NCBI GenBank assembly: GCA_028281535.1
Contig: JANQJS010000033.1
Location: 1 to 64,000, forward strand
Direction of reading: 5' to 3'
DNA length: 64,000 nucleotides
DNA from: Sedimentisphaerales bacterium
GTDB taxonomy: Bacteria > Planctomycetota > Phycisphaerae > Sedimentisphaerales > SM23-30
The first letter of the stretch is position 1; each line of letters opens with the position of its first letter. Below, in pieces: positions 16,343 to 52,200 of this stretch. The notes under the pieces are model-generated. The model searched no databases. It was not told the origin of the DNA and saw only the letters and a list, made by a program, of their open reading frames with translations. The position numbers and the translations under genes are program-made.

Positions 16343-16370
16343 TTGACAATCGACCAAAAGAACGTATAAT
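16343..16370 (+). promoter_or_regulatory. Perfect-consensus sigma-70 promoter upstream of the nusA leader/ncRNA
   Basis: TTGACA at 16343-16348 and TATAAT at 16365-16370 match both consensus hexamers exactly, with a 16-base spacer. Transcription should start near 16377. Such a promoter implies very strong constitutive transcription, as for stable RNAs or translation genes. Confidence 0.85.
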
Positions 16371-16376
16371 CCTCTG

Positions 16377-16746
16377 ATTAAAATACTTAGTGAATTTTTA
16401 GCCGAAGATTGAAACTCGAAGGCTATAAAATTTTTGGAATATGTTAACCGTTTCACCGATATCTCAGGATCGGAAACATTTATTTTTATCAGGTGAAGCA
16501 TGCTCAATAAAGGATTGGCTTACTAGTGTTGGCGCTGGGTCCCTTAATGATGGACCAGGCGTTCGCTTATGAATGTAAGCGAGACCGTTTGAACCTAACG
16601 TGTCACTCAGGTGATGGTTTGCAAAAAGATGATAGCTCTTTTTCAAAAACACTTTGGGGTGATGTGATGATTTGAAAAGTCACATAATATTTTTATTTGG
16701 TGATTTTTTCAAAGTGGGTAACTGTTTGCGGTCCCACTTTTTTTTT
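16377..16746 (+). ncRNA. Structured RNA of about 370 nt: leader of the nusA operon or independent small RNA
   Basis: The segment is bounded by a consensus promoter and an intrinsic terminator and contains no convincing reading frame. Hairpins seen by eye: TAGCC/GGCTA at 16399-16425; GTTT+CCGAT/ATCGG+AAAC at 16450-16477; a bulged stem at 16533-16561 (CGC, TGG, TCC with partners); a perfect 7-bp stem TCGCTTA/TAAGCGA at 16563-16582; AACC...TCAC-TCAG-GTGA...GGTT at 16592-16619; a long stem at 16671-16713; and the terminator at 16711-16746. I looked for tmRNA (no T-arm, CCA end or tag), RNase P RNA (no GAGGAAAGTC core) and SRP RNA (no GGAAG/AGCAGC loop) and found none of them. Because nusA starts 33 bases after the T-tract, it may be an attenuating leader. 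The class is unknown. Confidence 0.6.
16711..16746 (+). terminator. Intrinsic terminator immediately upstream of nusA
   Basis: AAAGTGGG (16711-16718) pairs perfectly with CCCACTTT (16733-16740) around a 14-base loop, and the T-run extends to 16746. It lies between the consensus promoter and the nusA start codon, so it either ends a small RNA or attenuates the operon. Confidence 0.88.
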
Positions 16747-16778
16747 AAACTGAAGATTCTAAACAGGGCTGAAAAGTT

Positions 16779-18140
16779 ATGAATGCAGATTTACTACGAA
16801 TCGTCGAAAACATATCGCGTGATAAAAATATCACTAGAGAGAGTATCTTTGGTGACCTCGAAGACGCTATGGCATCGGCGGCCAGAAAACAATTCGGTGC
16901 GACCGAACAAATTATGGTAAAAATTGACCGCGAAACAGGCGTTATCAATGCATACATTAACGATGAAGCGATTGATATCCGTAAACTAGGGCGTATTCCT
17001 GCTCAAACAGCAAAGCAGGTCATGATTCAAAAACTACGCGAAGATGAACGCGGTAGTATTTTTGCTGAATATCAAGAACGTGTTGGCGAAATGGTTTCAG
17101 GAACCGTTGCCCGATTTGAAGGCGGCACGACAATTGTTAACCTAAGCCGTACCGAAGCACTACTGCCACGCAGCGAACAAATCCCAGGTGAATCGCACCA
17201 TAATAACGAACGGGTGCGTGCTTTAATTTACGAAGTCAAAGAATCCACGAATCAGGTAAAAGTCATTTTAACACGTACTCATCCTGATTTTATTCGTAGA
17301 CTTTTCGAGCAGGAAGTGCCCGAAGTTGCTGAACGCATTATTGAAATTAAAGCATTGTCACGCGAAGCAGGCTATCGCAGCAAAGTTGCCGTTAGCAGTA
17401 TCGACAGCAAAGTCGACGCCGTTGGTGCTTGCGTAGGTGTTCGTGGCAGTCGCATCAAAAATATTGTCGACGAACTGGGCGGAGAAAAAATTGACATTGT
17501 CCGCTGGAATGAATCTTCTCAAATTTTAATTATCAATGCACTGCGACCTGCTGAAATACGTGAAATCGCACTTTGCTTTGAATTAAATCGAGCGACAGTC
17601 GTTGTTGGTGAAGATCAGTTATCGCTTGCCATTGGCAAACGAGGACAAAACGTTCGACTTGCTGCACGCTTGACTAGCTGGGATATCGATGTCCTCACTC
17701 CTCAGGAATATTCACTGGGCATGGAGACCATGATTGGCATGCTCAGAGACATCGAAGGCATTGATGATACTGTGATTGATAAGATTGTTGCATTAGGTTT
17801 GGTTTCCGTGTTGGATATTGAAGAAGTTGGCACCGAGCCATTGGTCGAAGCTATTGGGCTTGATCCAGGATTAGCAGAGAAGATCGTGAACAATGCAACA
17901 GAACAAGCTCGTATCATCGCAGCCAACCAAACCCAAAGTAAAGCAACACAAGCTGTGTTAGGAACGGAAGAACAATCCGAAGCTGCTGAATCCTCTGAAG
18001 AACCTCAAGAGACAGCGACAGAAGAAACTGTTGAAGTTGCCGTCGAAGCAGAAACAGATAGCAATGAAGAAGCTGCACCGGAAACAGTGGTCACTGAAGA
18101 AAACGAACCCGAGGAAGAAAATACATCTAAGGATGTTTAG
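16779..18140 (+). CDS. nusA: Transcription termination/antitermination factor NusA
   Basis: RNA polymerase-associated factor controlling pausing, termination and antitermination. The 453-residue product has the NusA N-terminal domain (residues 1 to ~100, [24 protein letters not shown] region), an S1 RNA-binding domain (~104-170, [19 protein letters not shown]), KH1 with [10 protein letters not shown] near 218 and KH2 with [15 protein letters not shown] near 283. A helix-hairpin-helix-like stretch follows (~330-375, [18 protein letters not shown]). The last ~65 residues are an acidic Glu/Thr-rich tail. rimP, which precedes nusA in many bacteria, is absent here; a structured leader with a terminator occupies that place. 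infB follows after 49 bases. NusA could regulate its own operon through the leader terminator, which is inference. Confidence 0.97.
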
Positions 18141-18189: not shown

Positions 18190-20946
18190 TTGGCAATTCG
18201 TGTACATCAACTAGCAAAAGAATTAAATGTTAAAAGCGCTGCCATCGTCTCAAAGTGCCAGGCAGAAGGCCTTGAGATCAAGAATCACATGAGCACCCTT
18301 TCGGTTGGGCTCGCTGAAACAATTCGTGAATGGTTTAGCGAAGGTGCGCATGATACGACCATTGAAGAAACAGCCAGGGTCGATCTAGAAAAAGTAAAAA
18401 CAAAAACTAAACGCAAGAAAAAAACCACTGCTGCCAAAAAAACCGAAGACAACAAATCTACTGAAACAGCTGTTGCTGAAGAGCCAAAAGAAACCACAGA
18501 TGTAGACGAAACCAAAAGCGTCGTCACCAAGAAAAAGGCTACCCGCCCCAAACGGAAAAGCCCGAAAGATCTTGAAACGGAACAACAGGCTGAAGCAGGA
18601 TCAGAGCAAACAACTGAAACAATAAAGCCTGCCGCAAGTAGTGAACCAGAAAAACCTGAAGAAATCAAAAACGCCCCGGTGATAAAACCGGTGGTTTCAG
18701 AACCATTTATCCCAACGCCTGCGAAACTCCAAGGCCCCAATGTGGTTCGCATGGAGCATGCAGACCACGTGCCAGTTCCACCGAGTCGCCCACCAAAGAG
18801 AAAGCCATTGTCTGAACCTATTTCCAACTCATTATCTATTAATGCAGACAAAACTCAGGATGGCAAAAAATCTCCTGTCGAAATGGGTGGCATACCAGAG
18901 ACCGGCAAAAAAGGGTCACGCAGACGTGTTCTGGAATCTGACGAAGATGAACAACAAAATAAACGCGGAAAAGGCAAAGGCCGCTCTCGGTCGCGTAGCA
19001 ATTCTGATGCAGACGCTGGCGCATCCAAACGATGGCGAGAACGTGACTGGCAGGAACGAGAAGAACGTTTAGCCCAAGCATCCGGCATGAAATTACACCG
19101 TCGAGAACGACGTCTGGCTCAAAATGAAATAGATGGATCTGGCGGCAAGCAAATATATAAAAAAACACAAATTGATAAAGCCACGGTAAAAGAACCAATC
19201 ACAGTTAAAGAACTTTCCTCAGCAATCGGTGTACGATCTACCGAGATTATCGCCAAGCTGATGGGAATGGGCGTGATGGCAAATATCAACCAGGTCATTG
19301 AAACAGATGCTGCTGAAACGATCTCGCTAGAATTTGGCGTGGAACTTAGTGTTGAAGCACATGTACAATTAATCGATCAATTACTTGAGGAATTCGACAA
19401 AGAAACACCGGATGATGATAAATCCCCACGCCCCCCTGTTGTTACATTCCTTGGGCACGTGGATCATGGAAAAACATCTCTCTTGGATTGCATTCGAAAA
19501 GAAAGCGTAGCCTCGGGTGAAGCTGGTGGGATTACCCAACATATCGGGTCCTATCTGTATGATGATGGTAAACGCCGCGTTACTTTCCTTGACACACCTG
19601 GGCACAAGGCATTTACTGCGATGCGTGCTCGTGGAGCAAACATGACAGATATTGCGGTCTTGGTTGTTGCTGCAGATGATGGCGTGATGCCACAAACAGA
19701 AGAAGCGATCAACCACATCAAAGCAGCAAATGTTCCAATTGTGGTTGCGATGAACAAGATGGATCTGCCGGCGGCAGATGAGAATCGCGTCTTAGGACAA
19801 CTAGCTGAAAAAGGATTGGTGCCCACAGAATGGGGTGGCGATGTTGAAGTAGTAAAAACAAGTGCACATACTGGCAATGGTATTACTGACCTTGTTGAAT
19901 ACCTGGATTACATTGCCGAACTTAATAACTTAAAAGCGAAAAAAGATGGTGCAGCAACAGGCTGGATTGTCGAATCTGAAATGAGTAGCGGCCAGGGTGT
20001 CATAGCACGAATACTGGTTAAGCAAGGAACGCTTAAAGCTGGCGATGTTATCGTTAGTGGTTCATCTTATGGTCGTGTACGTACCATTTTAGATTCATCC
20101 AATAAATCATTAAAAGAAGCTGGGCCAGCAACCCCATGTGAGATTTCAGGTCTGGAAGGTGTTCCAACGGCCGGTGACCGCTTCTTTGTACTGGACAATA
20201 TCTCCAAAGCGAAAGAAGTGGCGGACGAACAACGATCTCAAGAACGCGAAAAAACACTTGCACAACGCAGCATGGTGACATTAGAGAATCTATTTAGTGA
20301 AATCGAAGCTGGTGAAATTCGTGAATTAAATATTATTTTGAAAGCGGACGTACAAGGTAGTGTAGATGTACTTTCTAAATCGATATTGGAAATGAACACA
20401 TCAGAAGTTGCTGTTCGTGTTCTGCATGCCGCGGTTGGTGGCATCTCTGAAAGCGATGTGGTTTTGGCACAAGCGTCCAATGCCATTATTATCGGTTTCC
20501 AGGTCATTGCAGATGAATATGCTAGAACGTATGCAGATAAAAATAGCGTTGAAATTCGCCTCTACCGTGTTATCTATCAAATATCTGAAGATATCAAAAA
20601 AGCACTGGAAGGCATGCTCAAACCACGTGTGGAAGAAAAAGAACTTGGCCGCGCGGAAGTTCGTCAGGTATTCAAAGTTTCGCGTCTTGGAAATATTGCT
20701 GGTTGCTACGCAACTGAAGGGCTGATTAAACGTTCAGCAAAAATACGCTTAATTCGTGATAATATTATCTTAAGGGATAACTTATCGATTGATTCACTGA
20801 AACGCGTCAAGGATGATGTGAATGAAATTCGAAGTGGCTTGGAGTTTGGTATTAAACTCGTTGATTGCGATGATATTAAAGAAGGCGATCAGTTAGAAGT
20901 TTATGATCATATTGAAATTAGCCGGACTCTGGAATCGGTTCAATAA
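18190..20946 (+). CDS. infB: Translation initiation factor IF-2
   Basis: GTPase that brings initiator tRNA to the ribosome. The start is TTG at 18190, preceded by TTGGAG about eight bases upstream and giving the typical N-terminus [12 protein letters not shown]. Domains in 918 residues: a first IF2-N domain (1 to ~50), a long Lys/Glu/Thr/Ala-rich and Arg-rich disordered linker (~55-300), a second IF2-N domain (~334-385, [12 protein letters not shown]), then the G domain with GHVDHGKTS near 422, DTPGHKAF near 467, NKMD near 521 and SAH near 557. Beta-barrel and IF2 C-terminal domains follow, ending [12 protein letters not shown]. Length is typical for a species with an extended N-terminal region. 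It sits in the conserved nusA-infB-rbfA order. Confidence 0.97.
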
Positions 20947-20994
20947 ATGTAACTGGATGCAACACTCCCCTCCTTTCAGACCCCTGGTGTGAGA

Positions 20995-21276
20995 ATGATC
21001 ATCGGCGTCATGGAATTTCAAGTCAGTGTGTTTGATGCAATGACACTTAAGGACAAGCGTCGCGTCATAAAAAGCCTAAAAGATCGAATCAGCCATAAGT
21101 TCAATGTTTCGATCGCAGAGGTTGGCTACAATGACCAAATTCGAACCGCTTTAATGGGTGTATCGATAGTGGGAAATGATAGTAAATATTTAGATCAGGT
21201 TTTATGCAAAATCATAGATCATGTTAGAAAAATACCGCAGTTAAGTTTGATTGATTATCATATTGAAATGGTATAA
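20995..21276 (+). CDS. DUF503 (YlxP-like) protein
   Basis: Small protein of the DUF503/YlxP family, commonly found between infB and rbfA and thought to act in ribosome assembly or translation, without a firm biochemical role. The family pattern is clear: MIIGVMEFQVSVFDA, then LKDKRRVIKSLKDRI and FNVSIAEVG. I place the start at ATG 20995, because homologues begin MI-x-GV, rather than the GTG six bases earlier. The product is 93 residues, the usual length. rbfA starts two bases after its stop codon. Confidence 0.92.
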   Translation: MIIGVMEFQVSVFDAMTLKDKRRVIKSLKDRISHKFNVSIAEVGYNDQIRTALMGVSIVGNDSKYLDQVLCKIIDHVRKIPQLSLIDYHIEMV

Positions 21277-21278
21277 GA

Positions 21279-21707
21279 ATGGTTTCTCGACGACAGGAAA
21301 AAGTTTCAAAAGTCATCATGAGCTCGGTGAGTACAATTATACAAAACGAGATCTCAGACCCACGTGTTCAGGGCCTCATCAGTGTTACACGCGTTGATCC
21401 GGCTCCAGACCTTAAGAGTGCCCGCGTTTTTTTAAGTATTCTGGGCGTTACTGATAATCAAAAAAAATTATGCCTAATGGCAATCAATCATGCGAATGGG
21501 TTTATTCGCACCCGACTATCTCAACAGTTATCCATGAAAACCTGCCCGGCATTACAATTTCACATTGATGAAAATTTGCAAAATGAAATAGCCACATTAC
21601 AAATTATCGATGAAGTATCACGGGAATTACACCTGGAAGATGAAAAAAACAATGATACGTTACCCCCTAACCCGAACAATCAGATTGAGTCGGAGATCAA
21701 AGAATGA
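21279..21707 (+). CDS. rbfA: 30S ribosome-binding factor A
   Basis: RbfA binds the immature 30S subunit and helps 16S rRNA 5' processing and cold adaptation. The 142-residue product starts SRRQEKVSKVIMSSVSTII and has the conserved EISDPRVQGLISVTRVD and DLKSARVFLSILG segments of its KH-like fold. A C-terminal acidic and polar tail (DEKNNDTLPPNPNNQ) is dispensable-looking. It lies two bases after the DUF503 gene and overlaps the next gene by four bases (ATGA), so translation is probably coupled. Confidence 0.95.
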   Translation: MVSRRQEKVSKVIMSSVSTIIQNEISDPRVQGLISVTRVDPAPDLKSARVFLSILGVTDNQKKLCLMAINHANGFIRTRLSQQLSMKTCPALQFHIDENLQNEIATLQIIDEVSRELHLEDEKNNDTLPPNPNNQIESEIKE

Positions 21708-49289: not shown

Positions 49290-52200
49290 TTATTCCAACC
49301 AATTCGCCGACAATACAGAAAAATCAATCATATTAAAAAAGCCATCGCCACCATTTGGAGCTAAATCAGAAAAAGGTGAACCACTTTGCATCCACTCATC
49401 AACAAAACTATCGATATCACTAGAGGTATTATATTGCAAAAATTTCGCCCAGTCGGCCATATTAATAAAACCATCTCGGCCGCTGGGAGCTTTATCATGC
49501 TGTAATGATTTTTTCAACCATGACTCGTTAAACAATTGAAGATCTACTAAATCAACGGTATCTGTACAATTCAGATCACCTTCTATAAAAGGCTGCCATG
49601 CTAATCGCGGTGTATTTAATGCCTCGCAAATATCCCAAATATCATCAGTACCATTGTTGGATTCGCCAATAAAATCCCATCCGGTATCAATGAAGGTTTT
49701 ACGTAGTATCATTTGTTGATTCATTACTGCAATCACCTCGACAGGATCCAGTTGATTTCCAATGCCTGTCAATTCTGGATTGACAGTTTGATTCCAAAAA
49801 CAATTATTATATACAGGATCTGTGCTAAATTCGCCACCTGTATCCCGACCTGAAAATCCGCCGACATTGGTGTTTCCTGTTACAATCGCACTAGAATATG
49901 CATTAACAATGGTAGCCGAATTTCCGCCGAGAAACCCGCCGACATCATTATCACCCGAAACATCTCCTAGATTATAACAATTCGAAATAGTTGCTTCATC
50001 CATGTAGCCAACGAACCCACCGATAAGCATCATACCAGTCACATCCCCCACATTATAACTATTTGAAACATCTGTCAAAAAGCCAATACCAATACATCCA
50101 CCGAGATATTCATCACCAGAAATATTCCCAATATTATAACACCTGGCAATCAGACTATTATCACTCGCACCAACAATTCCACCAAGTGCTGAATTTCCTG
50201 TTATATCTGCCTTATTAAAACATGATAAAATTTGCGATTCATAGCTATAACCAATGATCCCACCTGCATAGGAAAGCATACCACTCAAGATGCTGGTATT
50301 ATAAGAATCCTTAATAATACAATCAGAAGTTGATCCTATCAAACCACCAATGGCGCCATAGCCTGAAACATTTCCATTAATGGAACGACAATTCTCAACC
50401 AATCCGCCATGGGCTGCTCCAATTAATCCACCCGTGGCATATTCGCCAAAGATATTTGGCTGGATTACCTGGCAATTTCGAACAATCCCATTATTCATTT
50501 TTCCAATAAGACTTCCAATATGTTCACCACCCTGTGATGAAGCTGTGGGATTGATGACTATTACATTTTCGATCAGCGTATTAGGTTCATCAATACAACT
50601 AAAAATACCAACATCACTTTCATGGTTATAATTAAAGCCGGAAATAGAAAAATGATTACCATTAAAACAACCAATAAATGGATCTTGACTTGATCCAATC
50701 CTATTAAAGCTATTATTGGTAAAACCTGACAGATCGATATCATTCATTAAAATAAAGCTTTTATTGAGATCAGTATTCACAAATCCAATACGATTTAACT
50801 GCTCGGCAGTTGTGATCTGGAATGGATCGTTTTTCGTTCCTGTCCCTCCCGAGAAAGCCTCAACAACATCTAAATCAAATAGTCGTGATTTAACTTGCCC
50901 ATTATAGGTGGCGGTGAACTTCAACTGATAATGTCCAAGATCGGTAAATAATACCATGACATTTTCCGCAAATGGATCAGGACTAAAGGTCACAGGTGCT
51001 GGCCCATTCATGAGTTCCCACTCAACGGATGCTGCTCCTGGTGATACGACACAATCCAAAAGCACCTGCCCTGTCAGAGGATGCGATACGCTACCGATAT
51101 TCAGATCGAGACTCGCATAAGGTTCACCAACGACACCGACAAAAAGTTCGGGGGCTCCAGGTGCCTGCCATTGTAGACTTGGATAATCGAATCCATCGCA
51201 TATGTCCCAGTCATTCACAAAATCCCAGTCGGTATAATTGCTCATCGCATACATTTGTTCAGTCGTTCGGCCCGAACCACCATCGCTACTTGTTTTGCCT
51301 GAAGTGTCTTTATCCCAATATGAATTGATGACAGAATTATAAAAACTATCACCTATAAAACCACCCACAAACGAATTACCTGAAACGGCACCTATGCTAT
51401 AACAGTCTTGCACGGTTCCCGTATCATCCACTTTTCCGGCAAATCCGCCCACATAGGTATTGCCATTAACTGATCCTGTAGCGTAACTATTTTCTACACT
51501 ATCTGTTCCATCCAGATGGCCTAAGAAACCACCGACTTTTTCATTGCCACTTACATCAGAGATACTATAACAACGTCGAATTCTACTAACATTTGTGAGA
51601 GCACCGACAAGACCGCCAACCTCATCGTTACCATTGACAATACCGCTGGCATAACTGTTTTCAACAGGCCTGACACTCGCAGCCCCAACCAATCCACCAG
51701 CCGCATGTCCTGTTGCCATCACGTGACTACTGCTATAACATAAATCTATGCTAGATGTATTTTGTCCCGTCAAACCACCAACATAATCAACACCTTCTAT
51801 CGATCCAGTGCTATAACAATTGGTTAAATAACCAAAATATTCTCTCCCGCTAAATCCACCGACATAGGAAATGCCAGAAACCATCGCTTCGCTATAACAA
51901 TCCTGGATAACACCGTTGTTAGCACCTAGCAATCCACCGACATAGCTATTACCCGAAACCATTCCTCGAGAAAAACTATTTTCCATCTCCATAAATCTCG
52001 TATAGGTTGCATCTTTTAGCCATCCAATCAATCCTCCGACATACTCATTTCCGATCACTGTGGCATCCGATTCACAATTGTAGATAGCCCCCTCGGACTC
52101 GAGCTGCCCAATTAACCCTCCAACATAGTCGTTACCAGATATTTGCCCACCTTGCAGGTGACAATTATCCATTATAACCTCACGCATTCTACCGACCAGT

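Follow-up and report, generated by a model that had tools for sequence, protein, structure and literature searches.

The nusA locus and its leader

The window analyzed here is a 64,000-nt stretch of DNA from a Sedimentisphaerales bacterium (GCA_028281535.1, contig JANQJS010000033.1, positions 1 to 64,000). Its nusA gene heads an operon that continues with infB, a small conserved ORF and rbfA, and is preceded by a consensus promoter, a leader and an intrinsic terminator. The coordinates of these elements, and of the smaller features within the leader, are collected in Table 1.

Table 1. Positions of the nusA leader elements and operon genes in the window
Feature	Position	Strand	Basis
Promoter TTGACA-16-TATAAT	16343–16370	+	12/12 consensus
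Leader RNA, about 370 nt if terminated	16376–16746	+	5′ end predicted from promoter; fold z = −3.3
ORF1: SD AGGTGA 16491–16496, ATG 16500, MLNKGLAY, stop 16524–16526	16491–16526	+	short ORF at the same place in 33/65 relatives
Hairpin CGCUGGGUCC...GGACCAGGCG, counterpart of the post-ORF1 UAGUCC...GGAC hairpin in L005, L006 and L009	16533–16561	+	sequence reading and folds
Candidate antiterminator strand CACUUUG, able to pair with 16710–16716	16650–16656	+	p = 0.23 against shuffles
Mini-ORF: SD GGTGA 16658–16662, ATG ATT TGA 16667–16675	16658–16675	+	same feature in 58/84 loci
Intrinsic terminator GUGGG...CCCAC with U9	16711–16746	+	sequence; most loci keep it ahead of nusA
nusA, first gene of the controlled operon	16779–18140	+	ORF; NusA 58–77% identical in same-class relatives
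infB	18190–20946	+	ORF and gene order; name from sequence reading
Small conserved ORF between infB and rbfA	20989–21276	+	ORF and gene order
rbfA	21279–21707	+	ORF and gene order; name from sequence reading

As an earlier note on this DNA had proposed, the promoter matches the consensus at 12 of 12 positions, with the −35 hexamer at 16343–16348 and the −10 hexamer at 16365–16370. Two perfect promoters occur in the 64 kb when both strands and spacers of 15–19 are counted, where a first-order Markov model of the window gives an expectation of about 0.1; the other pair lies at 50078 on the minus strand with a spacer of 15. The promoter scan listed no plus-strand promoter between the terminator and nusA, in agreement with the earlier remark that no other promoter is evident in this interval. 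The leader is also as structured as had been supposed. The minimum free energy of positions 16376–16749 is −101 kcal/mol against a shuffle mean of −85.2 kcal/mol (sd 4.8, z = −3.3), and the fold is more stable than those of all 100 dinucleotide shuffles.

The terminator, likewise foreseen directly before nusA, has arms AAAGTGGG (16711–16718) and CCCACTTT (16733–16740), and its U run extends to 16746, leaving a gap of 32 nt to the nusA start. The arms enclose a loop of 14 nt, which is why a simple terminator scan missed this hairpin. The rimP gene, reported as missing from its usual place, is in fact absent genome-wide: no match to the RimP_N profile (PF02576) was found in the whole 4.44-Mb, 99% complete assembly. 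Of 98 genomes from the phylum, 10 have rimP above the profile cut-off; the eight genomes sampled for the window's class, this one among them, all lack a match at that level.

The search with Rfam covariance models suggested in the earlier note was run on the window and on 20 relative loci, and apart from tRNAs no family was matched at the gathering score. The sole match on the leader is a weak one to L20_leader (21.9 bits compared with a gathering score of 58.7), and it covers mainly the terminator and U run. We considered and rejected tmRNA, 6S RNA, RNase P RNA and SRP RNA as the identity of the leader; each is found elsewhere in the genome and none gave a covariance-model match here. Known riboswitches and other cis-regulatory Rfam families were set aside as well, with nothing above the gathering threshold at the leader. 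The covariance models bear out the initial reading, in which no match to tmRNA, RNase P RNA, SRP RNA or a known riboswitch was seen.

Conservation among relatives

Because the leader has diverged beyond the reach of a DNA search, comparison with relatives was routed through nusA; a similarity search with the leader itself matched the terminator stretch alone, in one genome. Upstream regions were read at 84 nusA loci from relatives found in this way, which share ancestry, so that the counts given below are not independent and overstate independence. A recurrent order is evident in Phycisphaerae: a TTGACA/TATAAT promoter, about 200–450 nt of leader, a GUGG..CCAC terminator and nusA. The promoter is a 12/12 match at 21 of the 84 loci, with a spacer of exactly 16 in all 21, and an 11/12 match is present with a spacer of 16 at seven more and with a spacer of 18 at one. 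The GUGG..CCAC terminator precedes nusA in most of the 84 loci. Beyond Phycisphaerae, other classes of the phylum keep the terminator, often with a short leader; L123, L126 and L133, for example, have a short leader and terminator in which no mini-ORF was seen. Two contigs titled Actinomycetes (L033 and L040) carry a Phycisphaerae-type nusA and leader, and are probably mislabelled MAGs.

The earlier note had called for an alignment of relatives and a search for covarying stems, and the outcome is divided. The architecture is conserved, but the hairpins of the window are not kept pair by pair even within its own family, where RNAalifold on ten loci retained little besides the terminator.

Short open reading frames in the leader

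The earlier account of the leader was right about the promoter, fold and terminator, but overlooked a pair of conserved short ORFs and the antiterminator found in one subgroup. The ORF nearer the terminator is a start-stop mini-ORF, defined here as an ATG that follows an SD of 4 nt or more and meets a stop after 0–4 codons, the whole lying at most 170 nt ahead of the terminator. It is found at 58 of the 84 loci, compared with 8.1 expected from shuffles, most commonly as ATG-stop or ATG-CGN-stop (AUG-Arg-stop). The SD and ORF windows were set after the sequences had been viewed, and are checked by a frame test and by loci fetched later. In the frame test, a control that involves no selection on the stop, 39 of the 44 ATGs preceded by an SD of 5 nt or more have a stop within 0–2 codons in frame, and the other frames give 3 and 8. 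The pattern is also present at loci outside the discovery set (L108, L109, L111, L112 and L114), and an SD-ATG-TAG/TAA start-stop lies 101–117 nt before the nusA terminator in L119, L120, L129 and L137, which belong to a family (f43) of the same phylum outside the window's class.

The stops of the mini-ORFs are TAG (27), TAA (16) and TGA (13), the Arg codon is CGC, CGT or CGA, and the distance from AUG to stop varies by whole codons (0, 1, 2 or 3). The use of all three stops and the varying Arg codon indicate conservation of the start, the frame and the stop, and not of a single RNA motif. Within the window's family, 6 of 10 loci have a mini-ORF against about 1 expected (summed shuffle expectations), and an AUG mini-ORF is lacking in L004, L005, L006 and L009. 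A mini-ORF like that of the window arises in 16% of shuffles of the same region. A second start-stop, ATG TGA at 16662–16667, overlaps it. We also note that AUGUGAUG (16662–16669) forms an ambiguous start of the AUGUG type, overlapping the start-stop and the mini-ORF AUG, and resembles sites described in PMC9841429.

The second short ORF, ORF1, was sought as an SD-started frame of 7–14 codons located 140–290 nt before the terminator. It is present at 33 of the 65 loci that have no upstream ABC gene (6.8 expected) and encodes about 8–13 residues in the relatives, such as MVLTGLANSAK, MEFAGLNSREG, MMVQIGKVSRAFA and MDWKGNRVSA, each followed by a stop. At about 18 loci a UgpC-type ABC ATPase gene ends at this place instead, and ATPase tails such as TSAN, ASAA and NSRVGS before the stop resemble ORF1. 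Two of the ABC genes were tested and UgpC was the best match for both (NF008653), one above and one just below the cut-off. At about 15–18 loci the element lies directly behind an ABC-ATPase gene, and most of these have no good promoter of their own. Three loci (L025, L053 and L081) look like possible intermediates, in which only the ABC tail would have been left as a short ORF after an apparent gene loss or duplication; this suggests one way in which a leader peptide can arise, as the end of an upstream ABC-ATPase gene that outlasts the rest of the gene. L081 has an upstream ABC gene complete with a tail, and a second copy of the tail follows a TTGACC-16-TATAAT promoter.

Codon variation in the ORF1 of group B, the largest subgroup, is higher at third positions (0.43) than at first (0.28) or second positions (0.26), a mild sign that the frame may be coding. 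The frame of ORF1 in the window differs from that in L005 and L009, and we regard the window's copy as degenerate or re-made given this shift. In L017 and its relatives, inspection by eye only suggests a pairing between GUGCAAAG at the end of ORF1 and CUUUGCGC, which lies about 35 nt further downstream; L022 has changed pairs there.

Competing folds

In group B, GUUUCUGCUUC lies ahead of the mini-ORF and is complementary to the 5′ arm of the terminator, GAAGUGGAAAC. Across the group, 188 of 202 cells are paired (93%), compared with 41–57% when the strand is slid, and at eleven loci comparison with shuffles gives p ≤ 0.01 for the pairing. The energy difference between the antiterminator and terminator states ranges from −4.9 to +6.5 kcal/mol. 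The columns involved are nearly invariant, and 332 of 2000 permutations reached the observed value; the near-invariance means that the result speaks for complementarity more than for covariation. The candidate antiterminator of the window is weak: its pairing has p = 0.23, and the terminator state is more stable by 5.2 kcal/mol. We also tried a family-wide antiterminator in which CCCAC pairs with GUGGG (L005, L006, L008 and L009), and rejected it as suggestive but not significant against shuffles. The putative translation-sensing module is present in the window but reduced or degenerate.

A model for control of the nusA operon

We favor the interpretation that the nusA-infB-rbfA mRNA has this element as its 5′ leader, which probably functions as a transcription attenuator with translation-sensing short ORFs; the case is strong for the group as a whole but only moderate for the sequence of the window. 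Most transcripts would end at the terminator, giving a short RNA by-product that may accumulate. A ribosome on ORF1 and the mini-ORF would shift which of the competing folds forms, and read-through into nusA-infB would then rise or fall with the state of translation initiation or termination. As early as the 1980s, NusA was reported to repress the nusA-infB operon. Here NusA, by stimulating the terminator hairpin, would probably add direct negative feedback, and the analogy of B. subtilis (PMC12288461) makes autoregulation at this terminator plausible.

More tentatively, it is possible that the Planctomycetota nusA-infB attenuator senses translation initiation and termination directly. A non-elongating ribosome on AUG-stop or AUG-Arg-stop would report IF2 or release-factor capacity and switch between antiterminator and terminator, and the operon for IF2 and NusA would gauge the activity of its own products.

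Several of the observations would also fit a plain feedback attenuator, in which the terminator alone matters, NusA limits its own synthesis and the upstream ORFs are incidental. The terminator is the part kept phylum-wide, even in the short leaders of L123, L126 and L133, and the uORF module is weak in the window. There are precedents in the terminator-only rimP-leader (PMC2965389) and in the NusA-stimulated termination reported for the leader of B. subtilis nusA (PMC12288461). Such an arrangement leaves unexplained the frame-conserved mini-ORF, the enrichment of ORF1 and the group-B antiterminator, and we consider it somewhat unlikely. That the mini-ORF is instead a 30S-binding or structural RNA motif, its AUG-stop appearance being incidental, strikes us as very improbable: the group-B start-stop does sit in a hairpin and its SD is able to pair with CCUC, but an AUG-stop distance in whole codons, differing stops and synonymous Arg codons, with other frames showing no excess, speak against it.

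The earlier note had left two alternatives, an abundant small RNA and control of the operon by terminator read-through. Read-through control is well supported by the conserved promoter–leader–terminator–nusA order in Phycisphaerae and by the terminator in much of the phylum. A stand-alone, abundant, trans-acting sRNA, with nusA expressed through leaky read-through, is improbable, since at many loci the element follows an ABC gene and lacks a good promoter of its own. The perfect promoter and terminator of the window would indeed yield a discrete RNA of about 370 nt with a stable fold, but the element always lies beside nusA (a probe for the group-B element gave one match per genome, adjoining nusA), sequence and pair conservation are scant even within the family, and Rfam offers no match.

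The favored reading, an attenuator that responds to translation of short ORFs, suggests that translation itself sets the amounts of NusA and IF2 in Phycisphaerae. If true, an AUG-stop mini-ORF that holds its position before the IF2 operon across a class would lend itself naturally to sensing translation initiation, and start-stop ORFs would gain a conserved and testable regulatory target. A literature search, which left most subscription journals outside its reach, returned no description of a planctomycete nusA leader. Within that searchable literature the combination of a start-stop mini-ORF and ORF1 before nusA also appears not to have been described; the terminator itself is of a known kind.

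Comparison with known systems

The leader of the E. coli metY-rimP-nusA-infB operon resembles the one described here in serving the same operon and in having a strong promoter and a GGGCUUUAGGCCC terminator. Unlike the window, it carries metY and rimP, and a start-stop mini-ORF was not found between these two genes. The B. subtilis nusA operon has a NusA-stimulated intrinsic terminator in its 5′ leader, as cited in PMC12288461, and so shares an intrinsic leader terminator ahead of nusA, whereas the excerpted text of that source mentions no uORFs for B. subtilis.

Parallels to the short ORFs come from elsewhere. At topAI, vmlR and tnaC, as presented in the abstracts of PMC12121999, PMC9226507 and PMC8429421, a short translated upstream ORF decides downstream expression, partly via alternative terminator folds; SD-preceded short ORFs ahead of a terminator are found here too (16500–16526 and 16667–16675). 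The differences are that a core transcription and translation operon is involved, that the second ORF is just AUG-stop or AUG-Arg-stop and that ORF1 resembles the tail of an ABC ATPase. Ribosome profiling has identified start-stop sites in E. coli and C. jejuni, for which a regulatory role is considered possible, according to PMC11955535 and work cited there. These likewise consist of an AUG followed by a stop at once or nearly so, but the C. jejuni sites in that account are internal to genes and out of frame, whereas those described here keep a constant place before nusA across a class.

The closest comparison is with the rimP-leader, whose terminator is described as the most ubiquitous attenuator (PMC2965389). 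It lies 4–130 nt from the first gene of rimP-nusA-infB, with no larger conserved element (Naville and Gautheret 2010, PMC2965389). The terminator of the window shares the G-rich 5′ arm and the C-rich 3′ arm, and its 32-nt gap falls within the 4–130 nt range. It stands upstream of nusA-infB in a genome that has no rimP, and its stem is GUGGG...CCCAC with U9; the c and g that adjoin GGG and CCC in the rimP-leader stem (GGGc...gCCC, with a U run) are U...U in the window. Unlike the rimP-leader, the present system has lost rimP; it further includes ORF1, a start-stop mini-ORF and a promoter that is conserved, and one subgroup has an antiterminator. The best reading is that the element is linked to the rimP-leader terminator, to which a putative translation-sensing module has been added.
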